Positions 54,347 through 62,502 of a stretch of DNA of 63,746 bases are shown in pieces; the stretch's first letter is position 1, and each line of letters starts with the position of its first letter. Origin of the DNA: an uncultured Granulosicoccaceae bacterium (GTDB taxonomy: Bacteria; Pseudomonadota; Gammaproteobacteria; Granulosicoccales; Granulosicoccaceae); assembly GCA_937927895.1 (NCBI GenBank), contig CALGKA010000025.1:1-63746 (forward strand), in the 5' to 3' direction. Under the pieces are notes generated by a model. That model was not told the DNA's origin. It made no database searches and saw nothing but the letters and a program-made list of their open reading frames with translations. The position numbers and the translations under genes are program-made.

Positions 54347-54385
54347 CTGTTGTAAATTAGCCAAAGCAAAAAATTACCTCACGCA

Positions 54386-55039
54386 TTATTCGGCTGCAGA
54401 GTTGCCTATATTATTCGGCACCACAAAACCAACCTCTTTCGCTAATACTCGAAGTTCTGGCAATGAGTTGCAAATCGTTTTTTCAAGTATTCGCGCCCTG
54501 TGATGTTCTACAGTACGATGGCTGATACCTAGCTCGCTTGCGATTACTTTACTTGAGGGTACTGTCTCCCCTTCTATTAGTAGCTTATAGACTTCTAGTT
54601 CTCGACCAGTCAATTTATGAAATCGAGACAATATAGTATTCTTTTCATCATTGGCTTGTCTAATCTCAAAGTCTTTCGCAGTGGCTTCAGAGATCCGCTC
54701 CAGAAGTATCTCAGGTAAAAAAGGTTTCTCAAGAAAATCCACTGCACCAGCACGCATAGCAGTAACTGATTCAGTTACACCACCGTGGCCGGTTATAAAA
54801 ATAATCGGTATAGTTATCCCGCGCTCACTGAGCTCCGCTTGAAGCTCCAGGCCGCTTACCTCTGGCATGCTTAAATCCAGTACCAAACAGCCGTGCTGGT
54901 TGTTATATGACTCAAGGAATTTTTTTGCTGAATCAAAAGGATGCACGGTTAACCCATGGTACTCAAGCGCCCTGGGGAGCGTTCTTAAGACCGATGGATC
55001 ATCGTCTACCAGAAATACGATCGGATTATTTTTTGCCAT
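54386..55039 (-). CDS. FixJ-type two-component response regulator
   Basis: A 217-aa regulator from the ATG at 55039. The receiver domain has the acidic cluster VDDD, phospho-acceptor Asp55 in LVLDLSMPE, FITGHGG and Lys in FLEKPF. The LuxR/FixJ HTH follows (LTGRELEVYKLLIEG, SELGISHRTVEHHRARILEKT). The frame extends to GTG 55051. It lies 110 nt after the histidine kinase gene on the same strand and is the evident partner. The divergent multicopper oxidase gene is a candidate target. Confidence 0.92.
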   Translation of the reverse strand: MAKNNPIVFLVDDDPSVLRTLPRALEYHGLTVHPFDSAKKFLESYNNQHGCLVLDLSMPEVSGLELQAELSERGITIPIIFITGHGGVTESVTAMRAGAVDFLEKPFLPEILLERISEATAKDFEIRQANDEKNTILSRFHKLTGRELEVYKLLIEGETVPSSKVIASELGISHRTVEHHRARILEKTICNSLPELRVLAKEVGFVVPNNIGNSAAE

Positions 55040-55148
55040 GCAAAGTTTCACTTAACTAGAAAATGCGCTCCGCTGCTATGTTTTAATTTTCAAACCATAC
55101 CAGCACAACTCGTATTACAGCCCGGATTTTTCAGCCCGGCTATTAAGG

Positions 55149-56309
55149 CTAGGTTTTTTCAGTCAAGGGCAATGTAAAAGTAAAAGTAGCCCCTTTTTCC
55201 TCGCTTGCGTCTACCTCAATTGTGCCACCGTGGGTTGTGATGATGTCACGGCTTATTGACAACCCTACTCCCATGCCATCGGCTTTTTCAGTTTCAAATG
55301 CCTTAAAAGGATCAATTCCAGGCCCTATGCCCGGCCCGGTATCAGACACTGTCACGCTGACAACATCATCAGTACAATCTGTCGACACCTTTACAATATC
55401 AGGTTTCAGCCTGTCTGTATCCGGCATTTCTGATATCGCTTCTACGGCATTTCTTATTAAGTTAACGAGCACCTGGGCGATTTGAACGCTGTCAACTACA
55501 ACAGTCGGAATTTTACCACTGACCACTTCAATTTGAACATCTGCCGTTCGCGCCTCACCGGCCATTATGCGTGCCGCTTGTTGGACTAGACTATTGATAT
55601 CTGTTGAGCTCCGGGCAGAATTCTTGTTACTAATAAACTGCCGAAGTGCTCGAATGATCGCACCAGCACGCTGGGTTTCAGATTGAATATCATCCAAACA
55701 TTCAAACAGCAGCGGATCATTTGAAGCATTTCCTTTGGCGATCTGTACCGCCGTATCCGCCGAGGCTGAAATTGCCAACAAAGGTTGATTCAACTCATGA
55801 GCAAGCCCGGTCGCCATTTGCCCAACAGTCGATATGCGGCCTAAACGCGCAAGATCACCCTGCAATTTCAGCGATTGCGTTTCTGAAACTTTTCTCTGTT
55901 CCATTTCCGCCTGCAGAGATGCATTTGATTCCGCCAATTCTGTAGGGCTACGAAGTGCTAGCAGCTTTGGCATCACCGGGTATAACGAAATAGCCGTAAG
56001 CACTGAGGCAATCGCGGTAAAAGCCTTAACCATTCCCTGAAAACCATACTGACCATTCCATACCACCCAAATGCTCACCACATGGGTCACACCACAGGCA
56101 AATATGAAAATACAAAACATGTAAACAACACCCGGAAACGGGACTTCTTTTCTTTTTCTCAAGAAGTACAACAGCGCTATAGGTATGGAAAAATAAGCAA
56201 AGGCGATCGCCACATCTGACAACACATTTAACCAAAGAATATCTGGTCGCCACTGATAACAAACACCATGCGGCATAAACTCATCTAACAAACTGGTTGG
56301 AGCAACCAT
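55149..56309 (-). CDS. Histidine kinase with ethylene-receptor-like copper-binding membrane domain
   Basis: A 386-aa sensor. Residues 24-118 are three membrane segments that match the plant ETR1 ethylene-binding domain. LSDVAIAFAYFSIP and FIFACGVTH carry Asp32, Tyr39, Ile42, Pro43, Ile69, Cys72 and His76, which align with ETR1 Asp25, Tyr32, Ile35, Pro36, Ile62, Cys65 and His69 at a constant offset of seven. The Cys and His bind Cu(I) in ETR1. A short coiled coil (about 125-150) leads to a FixL-type kinase core: phospho-His171 in LAHELNQPL, an N-box (LVNLIRNAVEAIS) and DTGPGIG and GVGLSISRDI ATP motifs. No PAS or GAF domain. The partner FixJ-type gene is downstream and a multicopper oxidase is divergent. 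Confidence 0.88.
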   Translation of the reverse strand: MVAPTSLLDEFMPHGVCYQWRPDILWLNVLSDVAIAFAYFSIPIALLYFLRKRKEVPFPGVVYMFCIFIFACGVTHVVSIWVVWNGQYGFQGMVKAFTAIASVLTAISLYPVMPKLLALRSPTELAESNASLQAEMEQRKVSETQSLKLQGDLARLGRISTVGQMATGLAHELNQPLLAISASADTAVQIAKGNASNDPLLFECLDDIQSETQRAGAIIRALRQFISNKNSARSSTDINSLVQQAARIMAGEARTADVQIEVVSGKIPTVVVDSVQIAQVLVNLIRNAVEAISEMPDTDRLKPDIVKVSTDCTDDVVSVTVSDTGPGIGPGIDPFKAFETEKADGMGVGLSISRDIITTHGGTIEVDASEEKGATFTFTLPLTEKT

Positions 56310-56635
56310 CGTGTAGCCTCTTCGGTTTTTGAAACGCCCGGTAACGTATCGGGAATATAGTATCTAGTGCATAACTTAGCACGGCGGTAAGCAACCAAGG
56401 TTGCCGAACCTGCATGATCATGCGCTTCGGCAAACTACCAATAATCAGCGCAAGCTATAGGAAATAATTCTTTAAGCACCTACTGATTTATTCACTTGCC
56501 TACGCATTGCTAAAGAAAACCTCGTTACTTTTACTCATAGACTAACAACGCCGCTCGATCTAGTATCTTATTTGGCGTTGCAACGGGTTATCCTATGCAA
56601 CTAGTTTAATTACCTAAAACGAAAGACTGAACCAT
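56310..56635. other. 326-nt divergent intergenic region, kinase / multicopper oxidase
   Basis: No gene. It contains the perfect palindromes GCAACCAAGGTTGC (56391-56404) and GCATGATCATGC (56412-56423), and nearer the oxidase a CGTTGCAACG palindrome followed 11 nt later by TGCAAC. These are candidate regulator sites; no strong consensus promoter was found. Confidence 0.55.
56391..56423. promoter_or_regulatory. Adjacent perfect palindromes, candidate operators
   Basis: GCAACCAAGGTTGC and GCATGATCATGC lie 7 nt apart, about 85 nt upstream of the kinase start and 215 nt upstream of the oxidase start. They may bind the FixJ-type regulator or another dimer. Confidence 0.4.
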
Positions 56636-58033
56636 ATGAACAGGCGAACGTTTCTTCAATTAAGCACCATCAGTGCATGCATAGGTAAACTACCTATAGC
56701 GCTTGCCAAGAGCGCCGCGCCGACTTTCACCTTAACACCGAAAAAAGCCCAAATGAATATTGTCGGGGCAGAATTTCCGGCAACCGACATTTGGGGCTTC
56801 AACGGTGAAGTCCCGGGTACTCCCATCAGAATTCGGCATGGCCAGGCGGTAGACGTTACCGTTAGCAACGCCCTTGAAGTACCCACCTCCATACACTGGC
56901 ACGGCATTCGTCTACCAAATGCGATGGATGGAGTCGCGGGTTTAACACAGCCAGCAATAAAACCAACAGAACAGTTTCGCTATCAATTCACCCCACCCGA
57001 TGCAGGAACTTACTGGTATCACTCTCACGTTAACGCCTATGAACAGATTGGTCGTGGTCTGTACGGCCCGCTGATCATCGAAGAGACAGATCCGCCAAAA
57101 GTTGATAGAGACCTAACCTGGATGATCGATGATTGGCGCTTGCTAGACGACGCCTCAATCAGTGAAGACTTCGGCGCAGGCCATGATCGCTCCCACGCAG
57201 GTCGCATAGGCAACGTACCAACGGTTAACGGACGCTTTCGCGATGTTATTGGAGTACAAAGTGGCGAGCGCATTCGCTTAAGACTTATCAATGCATCCAA
57301 CGCACGCAATTTCTCACTATCATTCGGTGAGCTAACACCATCTGTAATCGCGATCGATGGGCAGGCAGTTAAACCCTACCAAACCAAAAAACCTATAGTG
57401 GTCGGAGCCTCTGGCAGAGTAGATCTCATACTAGACATGACAGGCGAACCTGGCTCATCACACACCGTAACCGATAGCTTCTACAGGCAAACGTATAACT
57501 TAATTCGACTAGAGTTTGCAGATAAACCGCTACGGGAATCACCGCTTGATACCCCCATAACACTTGCAAAACCCACAATACCAGAACCGGATTTAAGCAA
57601 CGCTCTGAAACTAGAAGTGACCATGGCAGGTGGTGCAATGAGCGGCTTACAACGGGCAAAGCTTAATGGCGAATGGATGGGGCTACGTGAAATTGCACAA
57701 CAGGGTTATGTTTGGGCCATGAATGACATCGTTGGTAATAAGCTTGATATGCCACCCTTGATCGATACCAATAAAGGCCAGTCAGTCCAACTGACGCTAG
57801 TCAACAACACAGCATTCCCGCACCCTATGCACTTGCATGGCCATCATATGAAATTGCTATCCGTTGATGGCCAAGCGTTAGCAGAACCATACTGGGTCGA
57901 TAGCCCGCTGCTTATGCCGCGTCAAACTATGACGCTGGCATTTGTTGCTGACAACCCGGGGGATTGGTTGTTTCATTGCCATGTATTAGAGCATCATGCT
58001 GCTGGACTCGGTGCATTGGTAAGAGTCACCTAA
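56636..58033 (+). CDS. TAT-exported multicopper oxidase
   Basis: A 465-aa laccase/CueO-like protein with a twin-arginine signal (NRRTFLQLS). Four copper motifs are present: HWHGIRL at 87, YWYHSHV at 127, HPMHLHGHH at 396 and HCHVLEHHAAG at 447. These supply the trinuclear and type 1 sites. The methionine-rich insert of CueO is absent, so metallo-oxidase activity on Cu(I) is not assured and phenol oxidation is possible. It is divergent from the ethylene-receptor-like kinase, whose sensing domain would also bind copper. The next gene faces it 37 nt downstream. Confidence 0.92.
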   Translation: MNRRTFLQLSTISACIGKLPIALAKSAAPTFTLTPKKAQMNIVGAEFPATDIWGFNGEVPGTPIRIRHGQAVDVTVSNALEVPTSIHWHGIRLPNAMDGVAGLTQPAIKPTEQFRYQFTPPDAGTYWYHSHVNAYEQIGRGLYGPLIIEETDPPKVDRDLTWMIDDWRLLDDASISEDFGAGHDRSHAGRIGNVPTVNGRFRDVIGVQSGERIRLRLINASNARNFSLSFGELTPSVIAIDGQAVKPYQTKKPIVVGASGRVDLILDMTGEPGSSHTVTDSFYRQTYNLIRLEFADKPLRESPLDTPITLAKPTIPEPDLSNALKLEVTMAGGAMSGLQRAKLNGEWMGLREIAQQGYVWAMNDIVGNKLDMPPLIDTNKGQSVQLTLVNNTAFPHPMHLHGHHMKLLSVDGQALAEPYWVDSPLLMPRQTMTLAFVADNPGDWLFHCHVLEHHAAGLGALVRVT

Positions 58034-58070
58034 TACGTACTAATTTTTCTTACTGGTTTTTCTTATTGGT

Positions 58071-59144
58071 TTATGGCCGACGAACAACATCACCCTCAAC
58101 TAGACCATCAACAATTTCTATCTGCAAACCATCAGACAGGCCGGTTTGTATTTCACGGCGTTCGAAAGTATCACCGCTTTTAATCAGTACAAATTTTTTG
58201 TCGTCTTCAAAGATCAGCAACCCCTCATCAAGTGTTAGTACATCGTCACGGCGATCAAGCACAATATCTGCATTGGCACTGTAGCCCGCTCTAATTTTGC
58301 TCTCCGGGTTCTCAGTTATAGCGGCGCGAATTTCAAACTGTACTGTACCTTCATCTCTGTTGCCCTTCGGCGAGATAAATTCCAGCACGCCGTCAAAGGA
58401 CTCATTTTCAATAGCGCCTATACTGATAACTAACGGCAAGCCTTCTGTTATACGCCCGACTTCAGATTCATCAACAGCACCAATAAAAATCATATCGGTC
58501 ATGTCGGCGATTGATGCGATGGTTGTACCTTCATTGAAGTTGTTCGTCTCCGTAACTGACTCACCTTCTTTCACTGGAACGGATAATATAGTGCCTTTAA
58601 CCGTTGATCTTATCTCACTAGAGACCGCACCACTCTCACCACTGCCACCTTCTTGTATCAGCAAAAGATTACTTCGTGCCCGGGTTTCCTCTTCGCGCTG
58701 AATTTCATAGTCGAACTGATACTTAGCGTATTCATCTTTAGAAATAACATTATCTTTTAACAGGTTGCGTCTTCGGTTACGCTCCCTAAGAGCGTTGGCT
58801 GCACTGATACGTGCGGTCTCTACGCGGGCTTGGGCGGAGTTAAGTGCCACCGCATCAGGAACTACCTGAATTTTAGCTATCAGCTCACCGCGCTTTACCT
58901 GTTGCCCGGCTTCAAGGTGGAGTTTTTCAACCACACCCGATACACGGGATTTTATTGTCACTTCACGGCGTGGCTCTATAGCACCCGTCGCAACTGCTTT
59001 CTTGATTATGGCGCCTGTTGTGACTTCCGAGGTTTCGAAAAACGTTTGTGGCGTTTCGTTTCTTTTTACTAAAAAATATAAACCAGCGCCTAGCAGCGCC
59101 AATACAATGAATAACAAAACAACTCTTATAATAACTTTAAGCAT
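58071..59144 (-). CDS. Periplasmic adaptor (HlyD/MacA-like) of an ABC exporter
   Basis: A 357-aa membrane-fusion protein with an N-terminal membrane anchor (VVLLFIVLALLGAGLYFLV). Then come the lipoyl-like half-motifs (VTIKSRVSGVVEKLHLEAGQQVKRGELIAKI and the paired ISTVKGTILSVPV region), a short helical hairpin with a basic NRRRNLL segment, and a beta-barrel domain. It connects an inner-membrane pump to an outer-membrane channel. It is the last of four genes, 2 nt after an FtsX-type permease. No TolC-like gene is seen here. Confidence 0.88.
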   Translation of the reverse strand: MLKVIIRVVLLFIVLALLGAGLYFLVKRNETPQTFFETSEVTTGAIIKKAVATGAIEPRREVTIKSRVSGVVEKLHLEAGQQVKRGELIAKIQVVPDAVALNSAQARVETARISAANALRERNRRRNLLKDNVISKDEYAKYQFDYEIQREEETRARSNLLLIQEGGSGESGAVSSEIRSTVKGTILSVPVKEGESVTETNNFNEGTTIASIADMTDMIFIGAVDESEVGRITEGLPLVISIGAIENESFDGVLEFISPKGNRDEGTVQFEIRAAITENPESKIRAGYSANADIVLDRRDDVLTLDEGLLIFEDDKKFVLIKSGDTFERREIQTGLSDGLQIEIVDGLVEGDVVRRP

Positions 59145-59146
59145 AA

Positions 59147-60418
59147 TTATTCCGCGCGTAATGCTTCAACTGGGTCAATCTTCATTGCATGCCTTGCCGG
59201 TATTAGCGTGGCGAGCAATGACGCAATCGCAAGTGCCACAACCGCTGCTATGGCAATGCGTAAGTCAATAGTGGGGGTATCGAACAATACATCTGCATCA
59301 ACACTTTGTGTGATCGGCCGTGTGATTAGATCAACCACATACAGACCTAACAGACCGGCAAACAAGCCGAGTATTCCAGACACTCCAACCAATGTTGAAG
59401 TCTCTGCTAAAATCATTTTAAGCACCGATGCAGGTGTCGCACCAATGGACTTACGGATACCAAACTCCCTTTGGCGTTCGCGTATGGCAATCAGCATAAT
59501 GTTACTCACCCCCAGAACACCTGCCAACAGAGTAGCGAGACCGACTGTCCAGACAAATGCACGTATACCAATGAATAGCCGCTCAATACGCAAAAATTCG
59601 TTTTCAGAGTTCCAATCACCAAATGCCCGGCTATCAGTCGGTGCAACTCTATGGCGCTGCATAAGTAATTGGCGCATTTGCCCGGCAACATCAACACTAC
59701 GTAAACCGTCAGCGGGAATCATGGCGTAAAAACCTATAGCATCGCCATAGTTAAATACTTGCTGAAAAGTACTGATGGGGATAAACGCCAGGCTACCCAT
59801 ACGCTCTCGATTGCTTCCGTAACGCTTGGGCTTAAACACACCAATAACGGTAAAACTAATTTGCCGTATTTGCACTTGACGCCCTATTGGATTTACCGAT
59901 TCACCAAACAGATCACTGTGCACTCGCTCGCCTATTACCACTACTTTGCGTTTTTCTTTGATATCCAACGGATTAATAAACCGCCCGTAATGGAAGTCCA
60001 TTGGTAGTACATGGCGAAACTCTGGCATATCACCGGACACTTCTACATCGGTAACTTTATTGCCATGCACCACATCGCTACGACCGCGCCAGCGCTCTAA
60101 TCTGACGCGCGGCGCAAGGTGAGCTATGTCGGGTATTTTTTGTAGCAAAGCAGTTGTATCGTCGTTGCTCAATTGAATCGGCCGACCTGGTGGTAAGCCT
60201 TGATACGGCTGCGATGATGCCTGCCCCCACATATACAAAGCATTAGTGGCATAACCTGCCATGCTCTTATTAACACCCGACTGAATACCGTTTCCAAAGC
60301 CGAGCATAATAATTAAAATAAATATGCCCCAAAATATTCCAGATGCCGTCAACAGCGTGCGCAACCGATTACTCTTTAGCACTTGCCACACTTCTGCCCA
60401 CAACTCTCGATCTATCAT
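59147..60418 (-). CDS. MacB-like ABC transporter permease (FtsX/MacB_PCD)
   Basis: A 423-aa permease with the N-terminal membrane segment (LTASGIFWGIFILIIMLGFGNG), a large periplasmic MacB_PCD domain (about residues 45-270) and three C-terminal segments around RQREFGIRKSIGATPASVLKMILAE, the FtsX signature. It lacks an ATPase domain, unlike E. coli MacB. The start overlaps the stop of a second permease gene by 4 nt. The two permeases probably form a heterodimer. Confidence 0.9.
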   Translation of the reverse strand: MIDRELWAEVWQVLKSNRLRTLLTASGIFWGIFILIIMLGFGNGIQSGVNKSMAGYATNALYMWGQASSQPYQGLPPGRPIQLSNDDTTALLQKIPDIAHLAPRVRLERWRGRSDVVHGNKVTDVEVSGDMPEFRHVLPMDFHYGRFINPLDIKEKRKVVVIGERVHSDLFGESVNPIGRQVQIRQISFTVIGVFKPKRYGSNRERMGSLAFIPISTFQQVFNYGDAIGFYAMIPADGLRSVDVAGQMRQLLMQRHRVAPTDSRAFGDWNSENEFLRIERLFIGIRAFVWTVGLATLLAGVLGVSNIMLIAIRERQREFGIRKSIGATPASVLKMILAETSTLVGVSGILGLFAGLLGLYVVDLITRPITQSVDADVLFDTPTIDLRIAIAAVVALAIASLLATLIPARHAMKIDPVEALRAE

Positions 60419-61650
60419 GATGGCTGCAACGCCTGCACAGGATCAATCGCCGCTGCGCGTCGGGCCGGCAGATAGCCTGCCAACGTTCCCGATACAATCA
60501 CCAATAACGTTACCGCTACCACCACAAAGGTATTAACGTCGGGCTGATACATGTATTCGTTTTCAGGAACAGTGGCTTTGAGTAATTCAAGCAAACCTAA
60601 ACTTGAAATCAAACCTATGTACCCGGCGATCACGGTGACAATCACTGACTCTAAAACAATTAGCCGTGTTATAGACCCGGGTGTTGCACCTATGGCTTTA
60701 CGTATACCAATCTCCCGGCGACGTTCTGCTACTGATATCACCATAATATTACTCACCGCGAGCACACCCGTTAATACAGTACCCACACCTACCACTGCCA
60801 CAAACACACGCACCCAATAAAAAAGATCAGTGACTTTCTTATATTCATCCAGGTTGTTATAAATTCGCGCAGCACGTTGATCATTAGGTGAAAAATTCTT
60901 ACGCTGTGCCAGCAGCTCACGCACTTGCTGTTCGCTTTCTTTACTTTGTTGATAAGTCGCATCGCCCACGGTGTAGGTCATTTGATGCAATCGAACGGGC
61001 TCGGCGTACACCAGCTGTGCAGTGGTGATAGGTAAGTAGACGGTCTCTTCTTCGTCTTGTGAGCCATCGTCAGTAAACACACCCACCACTTGATAAGAGA
61101 TTCCATTGATCGCGATCATTTTTCCAAGCGGTGCCGGTTGTTCAAATAAACGCTCGACTACTTTAGCACCTACAACAGCCACCTTGCGGCGCTCGGTAAG
61201 ATCATTTTCATTAATGTATCTACCAGCACTAAGAACGGTTTTCTCGAGGTACAAATGATCAGGATGCACGCCTCGTATATCAAACGCTGCCTGCTGCTTG
61301 CCGTAGCGCACTGTGCTATCACCACCCACATAGTAGCGTGCTGATATCTTATCAACGTGCTCTATGTTGCTACGAATTTGTTCGTAGTCTTCGTTTTCAT
61401 ATCGAATGGACCGACCACGCGGCAAGCCTTTGTAGTCAATGGTCGTTTTACCGCCGTATATTCGTATACTGTTGACGGCATCATCTTTGAATTGCAACTC
61501 GACTCCATTTTGAAGACCACGTCCGGCCCCTAATAACAGCACCAGCATAAAGATTCCCCAGGCGACCGTCAGTACCGCCAACACCGTCCGGGTCTTGTGC
61601 GTACGCAACGATTCAGAGATCTCAAACAGGGAATCGAATACATTCATCAC
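60415..61650 (-). CDS. MacB-like ABC transporter permease (second copy)
   Basis: A 411-aa permease with the same layout as its neighbour: an N-terminal segment TVAWGIFMLVLLLGAGRG, a periplasmic MacB_PCD domain and the FtsX region RRREIGIRKAIGATPGSITRLIVLE. The sequences have diverged clearly, so the duplication is old. It overlaps the ATPase gene by 4 nt. It is transcribed after the ATPase gene and before the other permease. Confidence 0.9.
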   Translation of the reverse strand: MMNVFDSLFEISESLRTHKTRTVLAVLTVAWGIFMLVLLLGAGRGLQNGVELQFKDDAVNSIRIYGGKTTIDYKGLPRGRSIRYENEDYEQIRSNIEHVDKISARYYVGGDSTVRYGKQQAAFDIRGVHPDHLYLEKTVLSAGRYINENDLTERRKVAVVGAKVVERLFEQPAPLGKMIAINGISYQVVGVFTDDGSQDEEETVYLPITTAQLVYAEPVRLHQMTYTVGDATYQQSKESEQQVRELLAQRKNFSPNDQRAARIYNNLDEYKKVTDLFYWVRVFVAVVGVGTVLTGVLAVSNIMVISVAERRREIGIRKAIGATPGSITRLIVLESVIVTVIAGYIGLISSLGLLELLKATVPENEYMYQPDVNTFVVVAVTLLVIVSGTLAGYLPARRAAAIDPVQALQPS

Positions 61651-62321
61651 AAACGTTCATCGCGAATGATATCGCCGTCGCGTAACTGAATAATGCGTTG
61701 AGTTTGCTCTGCAATTTCCCGCTCATGGGTGACCAACACCACAGTCATGCCCTGGGCATTTACATCACGAAACAGGCTCATGATCTGTTCACCGGTTTGC
61801 GTATCTAATGCACCGGTCGGCTCATCAGCAAGTAACAGTGCTGGCTGGGTAATTAAAGCCCGCGCTATAGCAACACGTTGCGACTGCCCACCGGAAAGCT
61901 CTGAAGGTTTGTGCGTCGCGCGATCCGCCAAACCCACCCGCTCTAAGTATTCCATCGCAATTTTATGCCGCTTACGTCTTGATACGTTTTGGTAGTACAA
62001 CGGCAGCGCTACGTTATCAAGCGCAGACTTGTGATGAATTAAGTTAAAAGACTGGAAGACAAATCCGATAAATCGGTTGCGATAGCGCGCTGCATCACGG
62101 GCTGACAAATTAGCAATGAGATTGCCGTCTAGAGTGTAGGTGCCACTGTCAGGGGAATCCAGGATTCCCAATATATTCAGTAGCGTTGACTTCCCAGAGC
62201 CGGATGAGCCCTGAATAGCCACAAATTCACCCGCCCCGATGAATAGATCCGTACCCACAAGCGCGCGCACCTGATGCTCACCCATGGCGTAGGATTTGGC
62301 AATGCTCTTAAGCTCAATCAT
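61647..62321 (-). CDS. ABC transporter ATPase (MacB/LolD type)
   Basis: A 224-aa ATPase. Walker A is GSSGSGKSTLLN, the signature is LSGGQSQRVAIARAL, Walker B is LLLADEPTGALD, and the H-loop is VTHE. The LFIGAGEFVAIQGSSG start and LNIL motif fit the MacB/LolD subfamily of mechanotransmission exporters. It leads the operon ATPase-permease-permease-adaptor with 4-nt overlaps. The substrate could be a peptide, lipid or toxin. The head is divergent from glutaryl-CoA dehydrogenase. Confidence 0.93.
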   Translation of the reverse strand: MIELKSIAKSYAMGEHQVRALVGTDLFIGAGEFVAIQGSSGSGKSTLLNILGILDSPDSGTYTLDGNLIANLSARDAARYRNRFIGFVFQSFNLIHHKSALDNVALPLYYQNVSRRKRHKIAMEYLERVGLADRATHKPSELSGGQSQRVAIARALITQPALLLADEPTGALDTQTGEQIMSLFRDVNAQGMTVVLVTHEREIAEQTQRIIQLRDGDIIRDERL

Positions 62322-62502
62322 TGGCTACAACAGATCTCCACACTGACTAATAGGATAGCCACAATAGCAGCCTTCGCTACGTAAATTCGTGTTGAGGGTT
62401 CGCTTTGGTAATAATTTCCGCTGTTACCGTCTAGCGCGAAGGTACCGTTGCCACTACACTTGACTACACCTCTCTTCTGAATGACACATACGGGATCAAA
62501 CC

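Follow-up and report, generated by a model that had tools for sequence, protein, structure and literature searches.

The window, by which we mean the whole analysed stretch of 63,746 nucleotides from an uncultured member of the Granulosicoccaceae, carries a gene for a sensor histidine kinase with an ethylene-receptor-type membrane domain, a gene for a FixJ-like response regulator directly downstream of it and, in divergent orientation, a gene for a multicopper oxidase (Table 1). The open reading frame originally predicted for the kinase proved to be real, and its strand is minus. Its N-terminal part matches the Pfam family ETR1_N (PF25487) with E=1.4e-37 and 128 bits, as compared with a gathering cut-off of 27, and ETR1_N is the sole sensor domain of the protein, a Pfam scan at E 0.01 having yielded neither GAF nor PAS. 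A short linker (residues 121-160) leads into a HisKA/HATPase_c core with its catalytic motifs in place: H171 as phospho-acceptor and the N, G1 and G2 boxes at 283, 323 and 345. Among NCBIfam families FixL is nearest to this core (residues 146-384, 178.7 bits against an equivalog cut-off of 850), and the core's top three hits in the PDB are LOV-FixL chimeras. For the regulator the best NCBIfam family is FixJ (171 bits against an equivalog cut-off of 255), so that it is FixJ-like and is not filed as FixJ; D59, T87 and K109 are in place. The prediction of a FixL-type core joined to a FixJ-type regulator therefore holds at the level of nearest families. We take the kinase motifs and the three regulator residues to have their customary roles. 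Translation of the regulator likely begins with the ATG at 55039, a position that coincides in alignment with the start in most relatives.

Table 1. Position, strand and basis of assignment of the features at the receptor locus (coordinates refer to the window).
Feature	Position	Strand	Basis
FixJ-like response regulator, receiver and GerE/LuxR helix-turn-helix domains	54386..55051	-	Pfam, NCBIfam
Ethylene-receptor-type sensor histidine kinase, 386 aa	55149..56309	-	ORF and Pfam ETR1_N, HisKA, HATPase_c
ETR1_N membrane sensor of the ethylene-binding type (residues 24-119) with three predicted hydrophobic helices	55953..56240	-	Pfam, alignment, hydropathy
Promoter region that separates the kinase gene from the divergent oxidase gene	56310..56635	.	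no shared operator established
Multicopper oxidase, divergent neighbour, outside any conserved unit	56636..58033	+	Pfam, NCBIfam, locus survey
Variable block with regulator, kinase, oxidase and HlyD/MacB-like efflux genes, flanked by hemerythrin-like and acyl-CoA dehydrogenase genes	54347..62502	.	

All seven positions of plant ETR1 that had been named as important in the original prediction recur in the kinase at a constant offset of +7. In the alignment D25, Y32, I35, P36, I62, C65 and H69 of ETR1 correspond to D32, Y39, I42, P43, I69, C72 and H76. The ETR1 numbering of D25, C65, H69 and the output lysine K91 agrees with a published account (PMC11819568), that of the other four positions is taken over from the prediction. 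The output lysine is K95 in the window kinase, at an offset of +4, and T98 occupies position +7; the stretch ahead of helix 3 is three residues shorter, just as in AzoEtr1 from Azospirillum brasilense (K98). The seven residues and the lysine, and with them the Cys and His of the presumed copper site, are kept in all eight family members that possess the receptor, including that of the window, to which the other seven are 54-70% identical. Close orthologs thus do not show the loss of Cys and His that would have counted against the original prediction. Among the eight, pairwise identity averages 0.75 over HisKA, 0.69 over the sensor, 0.57 over the linker and 0.52 over HATPase; being conserved nearly as well as the dimerisation domain and better than the ATPase, the sensor is strongly constrained. 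Residues 1-135 were modelled with AlphaFold from the single sequence, as a monomer without copper; the model, of low confidence (mean pLDDT 62, pTM 0.39), contains three long helices (22-52, 58-85 and 88-109), and hydropathy likewise gives three. This is consistent with, though no proof of, the fold expected of such receptors, three transmembrane helices with the metal site in helices 1-2.

The genome from which the window stems (4.55 Mb, 93% complete) contains a single ETR1_N match, and none was present in 14 control genomes. When genome contigs were scanned with the whole kinase, one kinase-core relative only was recovered (L009; G and L numbers denote genomes and loci). A second FixL/FixJ-like pair, with a PAS kinase, is encoded at L128:4658-7724 in the window's own genome and is placed as a paralog in the kinase tree. 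Within the family, 8 of 48 genomes scored above the ETR1_N cut-off; the 40 genomes that gave no receptor match include many incomplete ones, and an order-level search added none to the eight. The corresponding numbers are 4/14 for the genus (G000, G005, G007 and G008), 12/369 for genomes drawn from the class and 23/299 for genomes drawn from the phylum, samples that overlap, that each include G000 and that contain many incomplete genomes.

A profile built from 50 sources (the window and 49 loci) was matched by 45 of them, the exceptions being L008, L022, L023, L024 and L051. All seven residues are present in 26 of these 45 bacterial sensor rows, two of which are A. brasilense strains, and Cys and His are each found in 42. 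In the other 19 rows one or more of the seven is missing, so that the domain is not used alike everywhere. In the kinases of L045 and L046, from two genomes of one genus, Arg replaces the copper His and other site positions are changed as well, the pattern being the same in both (DFTAVCR). Two short proteins (L071:9774-10217, 136 residues, and L063:9835-10443, 198 residues) consist of little beyond an ETR1_N-like sensor and are not followed by an in-frame kinase. The absence of GAF, which had been put forward as a difference from plants and cyanobacteria, is correct for the window kinase but is not distinctive: none of ten bacterial relatives scanned at E 1e-5 has this domain, and short sensor-kinases devoid of both GAF and PAS are found elsewhere (L062, L069 and L077, and with a fused receiver L074 and L090). 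According to a review, such domains occur in many proteobacteria, where they are linked to widely differing outputs, and receptor homologs are present in brown algae (PMC7700396).

What sets the family members apart is their partner. With the regulator of the window as query (E 1e-5), a receiver protein with a DNA-binding domain was found to be encoded immediately downstream, in the same orientation, in 9 of 42 sensor loci, namely in all eight of the family and in L070; some loci end near the gene, and partners of other types may have been missed by this query. At the AzoEtr1 locus, a receiver-only match occupies the downstream position. L070:8653-10218, from another family of the class, encodes an ETR1_N kinase with PAS and has a FixJ-like partner. 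Its copper Cys position is Ala, other site residues are lost as well (DLIATAH), and the ligand of this protein is perhaps altered.

Several known systems come close to this arrangement. Plant ETR1, which has the same seven ethylene-binding positions, possesses a GAF domain behind the sensor and signals via CTR1, whereas the window kinase lacks GAF and would presumably act by His-Asp phosphotransfer onto the FixJ-like regulator. FixL and FixJ are the families nearest to the kinase core and the regulator; however, FixL senses oxygen with a haem-binding PAS domain, which is missing here, and both window proteins score below the respective equivalog cut-offs. SynEtr1 from Synechocystis carries GAF/PAS domains. 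It too is a bacterial ethylene receptor kinase that signals to a response regulator acting on transcription, but it is reported to sense light as well (PMC11819568), for which the window kinase has no such domain. A relative published as an ethylene receptor is AzoEtr1, which we identified with frame 6962-8539 of L027 (A. brasilense Sp7) on the basis of its 525 residues and of D35, C75, H79 and K98, all as published. Its sensor is 53% identical to that of the window over 109 residues without a gap. AzoEtr1 is stated to bind ethylene, its first 130 residues, cloned from strain Sp245, were expressed in yeast, and D35A and C75A copies did not rescue biofilm formation in the mutant (PMC11819568). 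Both systems combine ETR1_N containing the seven residues and the lysine with a histidine kinase and a regulator gene directly downstream. AzoEtr1 differs by its length and by a PAS domain that lies between sensor and kinase (PAS_4 in the L027 frame), and AzoRRetr1 is described as a lone 135-residue receiver with no recognised output domain (PMC11819568), in contrast to the DNA-binding FixJ-type regulator of the window. The same source names one cyanobacterium and the root bacterium A. brasilense as those for which bacterial ethylene receptors have been demonstrated (PMC11819568). An ethylene receptor from a proteobacterium, encoded next to a response regulator, is thus already known, and the novelty implied at the outset shrinks accordingly; the wiring in the window is a variant by virtue of its DNA-binding partner, not of the missing GAF domain. 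For the pairing of an ethylene-receptor-type sensor with a FixJ-type regulator we found no published description in the freely accessible literature consulted.

The output half of the pair also occurs with a different sensor. A family-wide regulator search recovered a copy 61-62% identical to the window's in G001, a genome of the same genus that has no ETR1_N match. The kinase encoded upstream of it (L119:7705-9450, minus strand) has a core 53% identical to that of the window kinase and a sensor part composed of GAF (residues 29-157) and PAS (180-285). This PAS domain is of the LOV type, as it matches 145 PDB sequences at 1e-6 or better, phototropins and blue-light histidine kinases being among the 60 matches listed, and it contains the motif GKNCRFLQ, which we take to be a LOV signature. 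In a tree of kinase cores, built from those 29 of 46 rows that have more than 180 matched positions (midpoint root, long branches elsewhere), the G001 core and the eight ETR cores form one group of nine rows with support of 99/99, inside which the place of the G001 core is not resolved. The two kinases hence have orthologous cores and similar regulators, with GAF and LOV in one of them instead of ETR1_N.

Between the G001 kinase and regulator genes lie 537 bases (L119:7168-7704) that contain a decayed kinase stretch. Its best matches are the ETR kinases of G007 (33.1 bits), of the window and G008 (29.3 bits) and of G030 (28.5 bits), followed by G001's own LOV kinase (26.6 bits), as compared with a maximum of 25.8 bits among 200 single-base shuffles. 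The ETR kinases lead by a modest margin, and the ATPase part alone is significant. The decayed gene points to a further kinase of this group that once stood beside the G001 regulator and was then displaced. A candidate N-terminal sensor remnant in L119 did not rise above the shuffles and is not counted as evidence. Regulators 51-53% identical to that of the window are present in G003 and G006, both of the same genus (L122:6866-7486 and L121:5720-6346), with no match to a related kinase nearby. The genes flanking the G003 regulator, EamA and LysR, match genes that adjoin the ETR pair of G005 (72% and 66%). The regulator tree is weakly resolved (61/76 at the main split), and a single origin of the pairing is neither proven nor excluded by it.

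The block that contains the receptor pair is itself variable. In G005 (L138), of the same genus, the hemerythrin-like and acyl-CoA dehydrogenase genes stand side by side, and in G006 (L136), likewise of this genus, they are separated by a 124-residue frame only. Positions 54347-62502 are therefore a gain in the window or a loss in these relatives. In G007 the receptor pair is situated near the same hemerythrin gene, with acetyltransferase and LysR genes intervening. A mobile origin of the block is not claimed, the base composition of its parts being ordinary (42-50% versus 47% for the window); the claim is limited to the pattern of presence and absence. The block further includes, at 58071-62321 on the minus strand, an HlyD-like gene, two MacB-like genes (the first of which only was scanned for domains) and one for an ABC ATPase.

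Copper-dependent ethylene binding has to be weighed against three other readings of the sensor. The metal itself might be the signal, Cu(I) or a copper-linked redox state acting on the neighbouring oxidase gene, as the original prediction found attractive. The conserved Cys/His site, the divergent oxidase gene next to the kinase in the window, L053 and L054, and a copper amine oxidase gene that follows the regulator in L057 past two small ORFs would all fit. However, the oxidase adjoins the kinase in just these three of the eight receptor loci, and two of the eight receptor genomes (G005 and G065) have no oxidase match at all. Conversely, of 28 family genomes out of 48 with an oxidase match at E 1e-30, some of them distant or partial, 22 are without a receptor match. 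Of the kinase-FixJ-oxidase order, the kinase-FixJ pair is thus constant (8/8) and the oxidase is not, and the family survey led us to reject a copper circuit that includes the oxidase as a conserved unit. Moreover, the positions of Y32, I35, P36 and I62 are retained too, which we take to be needed for ethylene beyond simple metal binding. Copper sensing as such is in our judgement unlikely.

Rather unlikely, too, is the reading that the Cu(I) site serves another small ligand, such as carbon monoxide, another alkene or oxygen through copper. A gas is the signal of FixL-type relatives, several site positions vary in some relatives, ETR1-type sites bind other alkenes, and further alkenes may well be available in the sea. 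Against this stand the 53% identity to a domain with published ethylene binding and the preservation of all seven positions. It is highly improbable that the sensor is a structural relic on a kinase that works ligand-free or receives its signal elsewhere. The GAF-LOV kinase on an orthologous core in G001 and the lone related regulators in G003 and G006 imply that the output does not always depend on an ETR1_N sensor, and L070 has lost its Cys in spite of a FixJ-like partner; yet among the eight family members sensor conservation comes close to that of the dimerisation domain, and the metal-site residues are invariant.

We therefore consider it likely that the kinase is a Cu(I)-dependent ethylene sensor that acts on transcription through the FixJ-type regulator. 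The predicted placement of an ethylene-receptor-type sensor on a FixL-like kinase is upheld by the ETR1_N score, the seven residues and the similarity to AzoEtr1, and sequence comparison gives good support to its reading as an ethylene receptor kinase. The predicted three-helix membrane domain would bind Cu(I) via C72 and H76, with D32 in a positioning role; in a model of ETR1, Cu(I) stays on C65 and H69 and contacts with D25 are infrequent (PMC6586836). Ethylene bound through this copper may alter helix packing, including a contact between D32 and K95, and the change could run via the linker into the HisKA dimer, where it would affect autophosphorylation of H171. Ethylene is reported to lower autophosphorylation of ETR1 and predicted to do so in AzoEtr1 (PMC11819568), and by analogy the same direction is assumed here. 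The phosphate would pass to D59 of the co-encoded regulator, which may then activate or repress genes via its GerE domain. In this way the cell probably reads ethylene and changes its gene activity. A lifestyle switch such as surface attachment as the output is a guess, made by analogy with AzoEtr1 and from the presumed association with seaweeds and seagrasses. In a search of the window's genome for ACC deaminase the best match scored 189 bits, where the cut-off is 392, and similar matches were obtained in 6 of 14 control genomes, so that evidence for this enzyme is lacking.

A shared operator was sought in 16 upstream regions, comprising those of the eight ETR kinase genes, of the LOV kinase and its regulator, and of six regulators without an adjacent related kinase. 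The best word pair overall, CAATTAAA, occurs in six of the 16 regions, in front of ETR kinase genes or related regulators. This count lies above all 20 shuffle maxima (4-5) but is reached by 10 of 200 shuffles and is borderline. When the eight-base words were considered alone, in a test set up after CAATTAAA had been seen, none of 500 shuffles reached the count. No operator is claimed, because the six CAATTAAA sites are scattered from -20 to -244 and the window's own promoter is without one. The consensus of the FixJ box is GTAMGTAR; it is absent from all 16 regions, TACGTA is present in two and ACGTA in nine (shuffle mean 6.4).

The exchange of sensors within one genus was unexpected. As a tentative proposal, ethylene receptor and GAF plus blue-light LOV, the latter displacing an earlier kinase, may be interchangeable sensors on one FixJ-type switch, so that ethylene, from algae or sea-surface photochemistry, and blue light could serve marine epiphytic Granulosicoccaceae as alternative cues for a single response to life on a host surface or near the surface. 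The natural swap of ETR-type and LOV sensors on one FixL-like core resembles the construction of the LOV-FixL chimeras found in the PDB and offers a matched pair for the question of how unrelated sensors drive one kinase. An abundance of Granulosicoccus is reported on kelp (PMC9238374), and on eelgrass leaves the genus made up 13% of the community on average (PMC5863793). Eelgrass is reported to be devoid of ethylene genes (PMC5863793), which argues against the seagrass as the source of the signal. With a sensor so close to a published one wired to a DNA-binding regulator in a family reported to be abundant on kelp and eelgrass, ethylene signalling between seaweeds and bacteria would become testable by a simple promoter reporter. 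Within the family, reaction-centre genes are present in 10 of 48 genomes (3.5 to 5.8 Mb) and absent from one 7.8-Mb single-contig genome; in line with this, G. antarcticus is described as having no pufLM and kelp Granulosicoccus of about 4.3 Mb as possessing these genes (PMC9238374).
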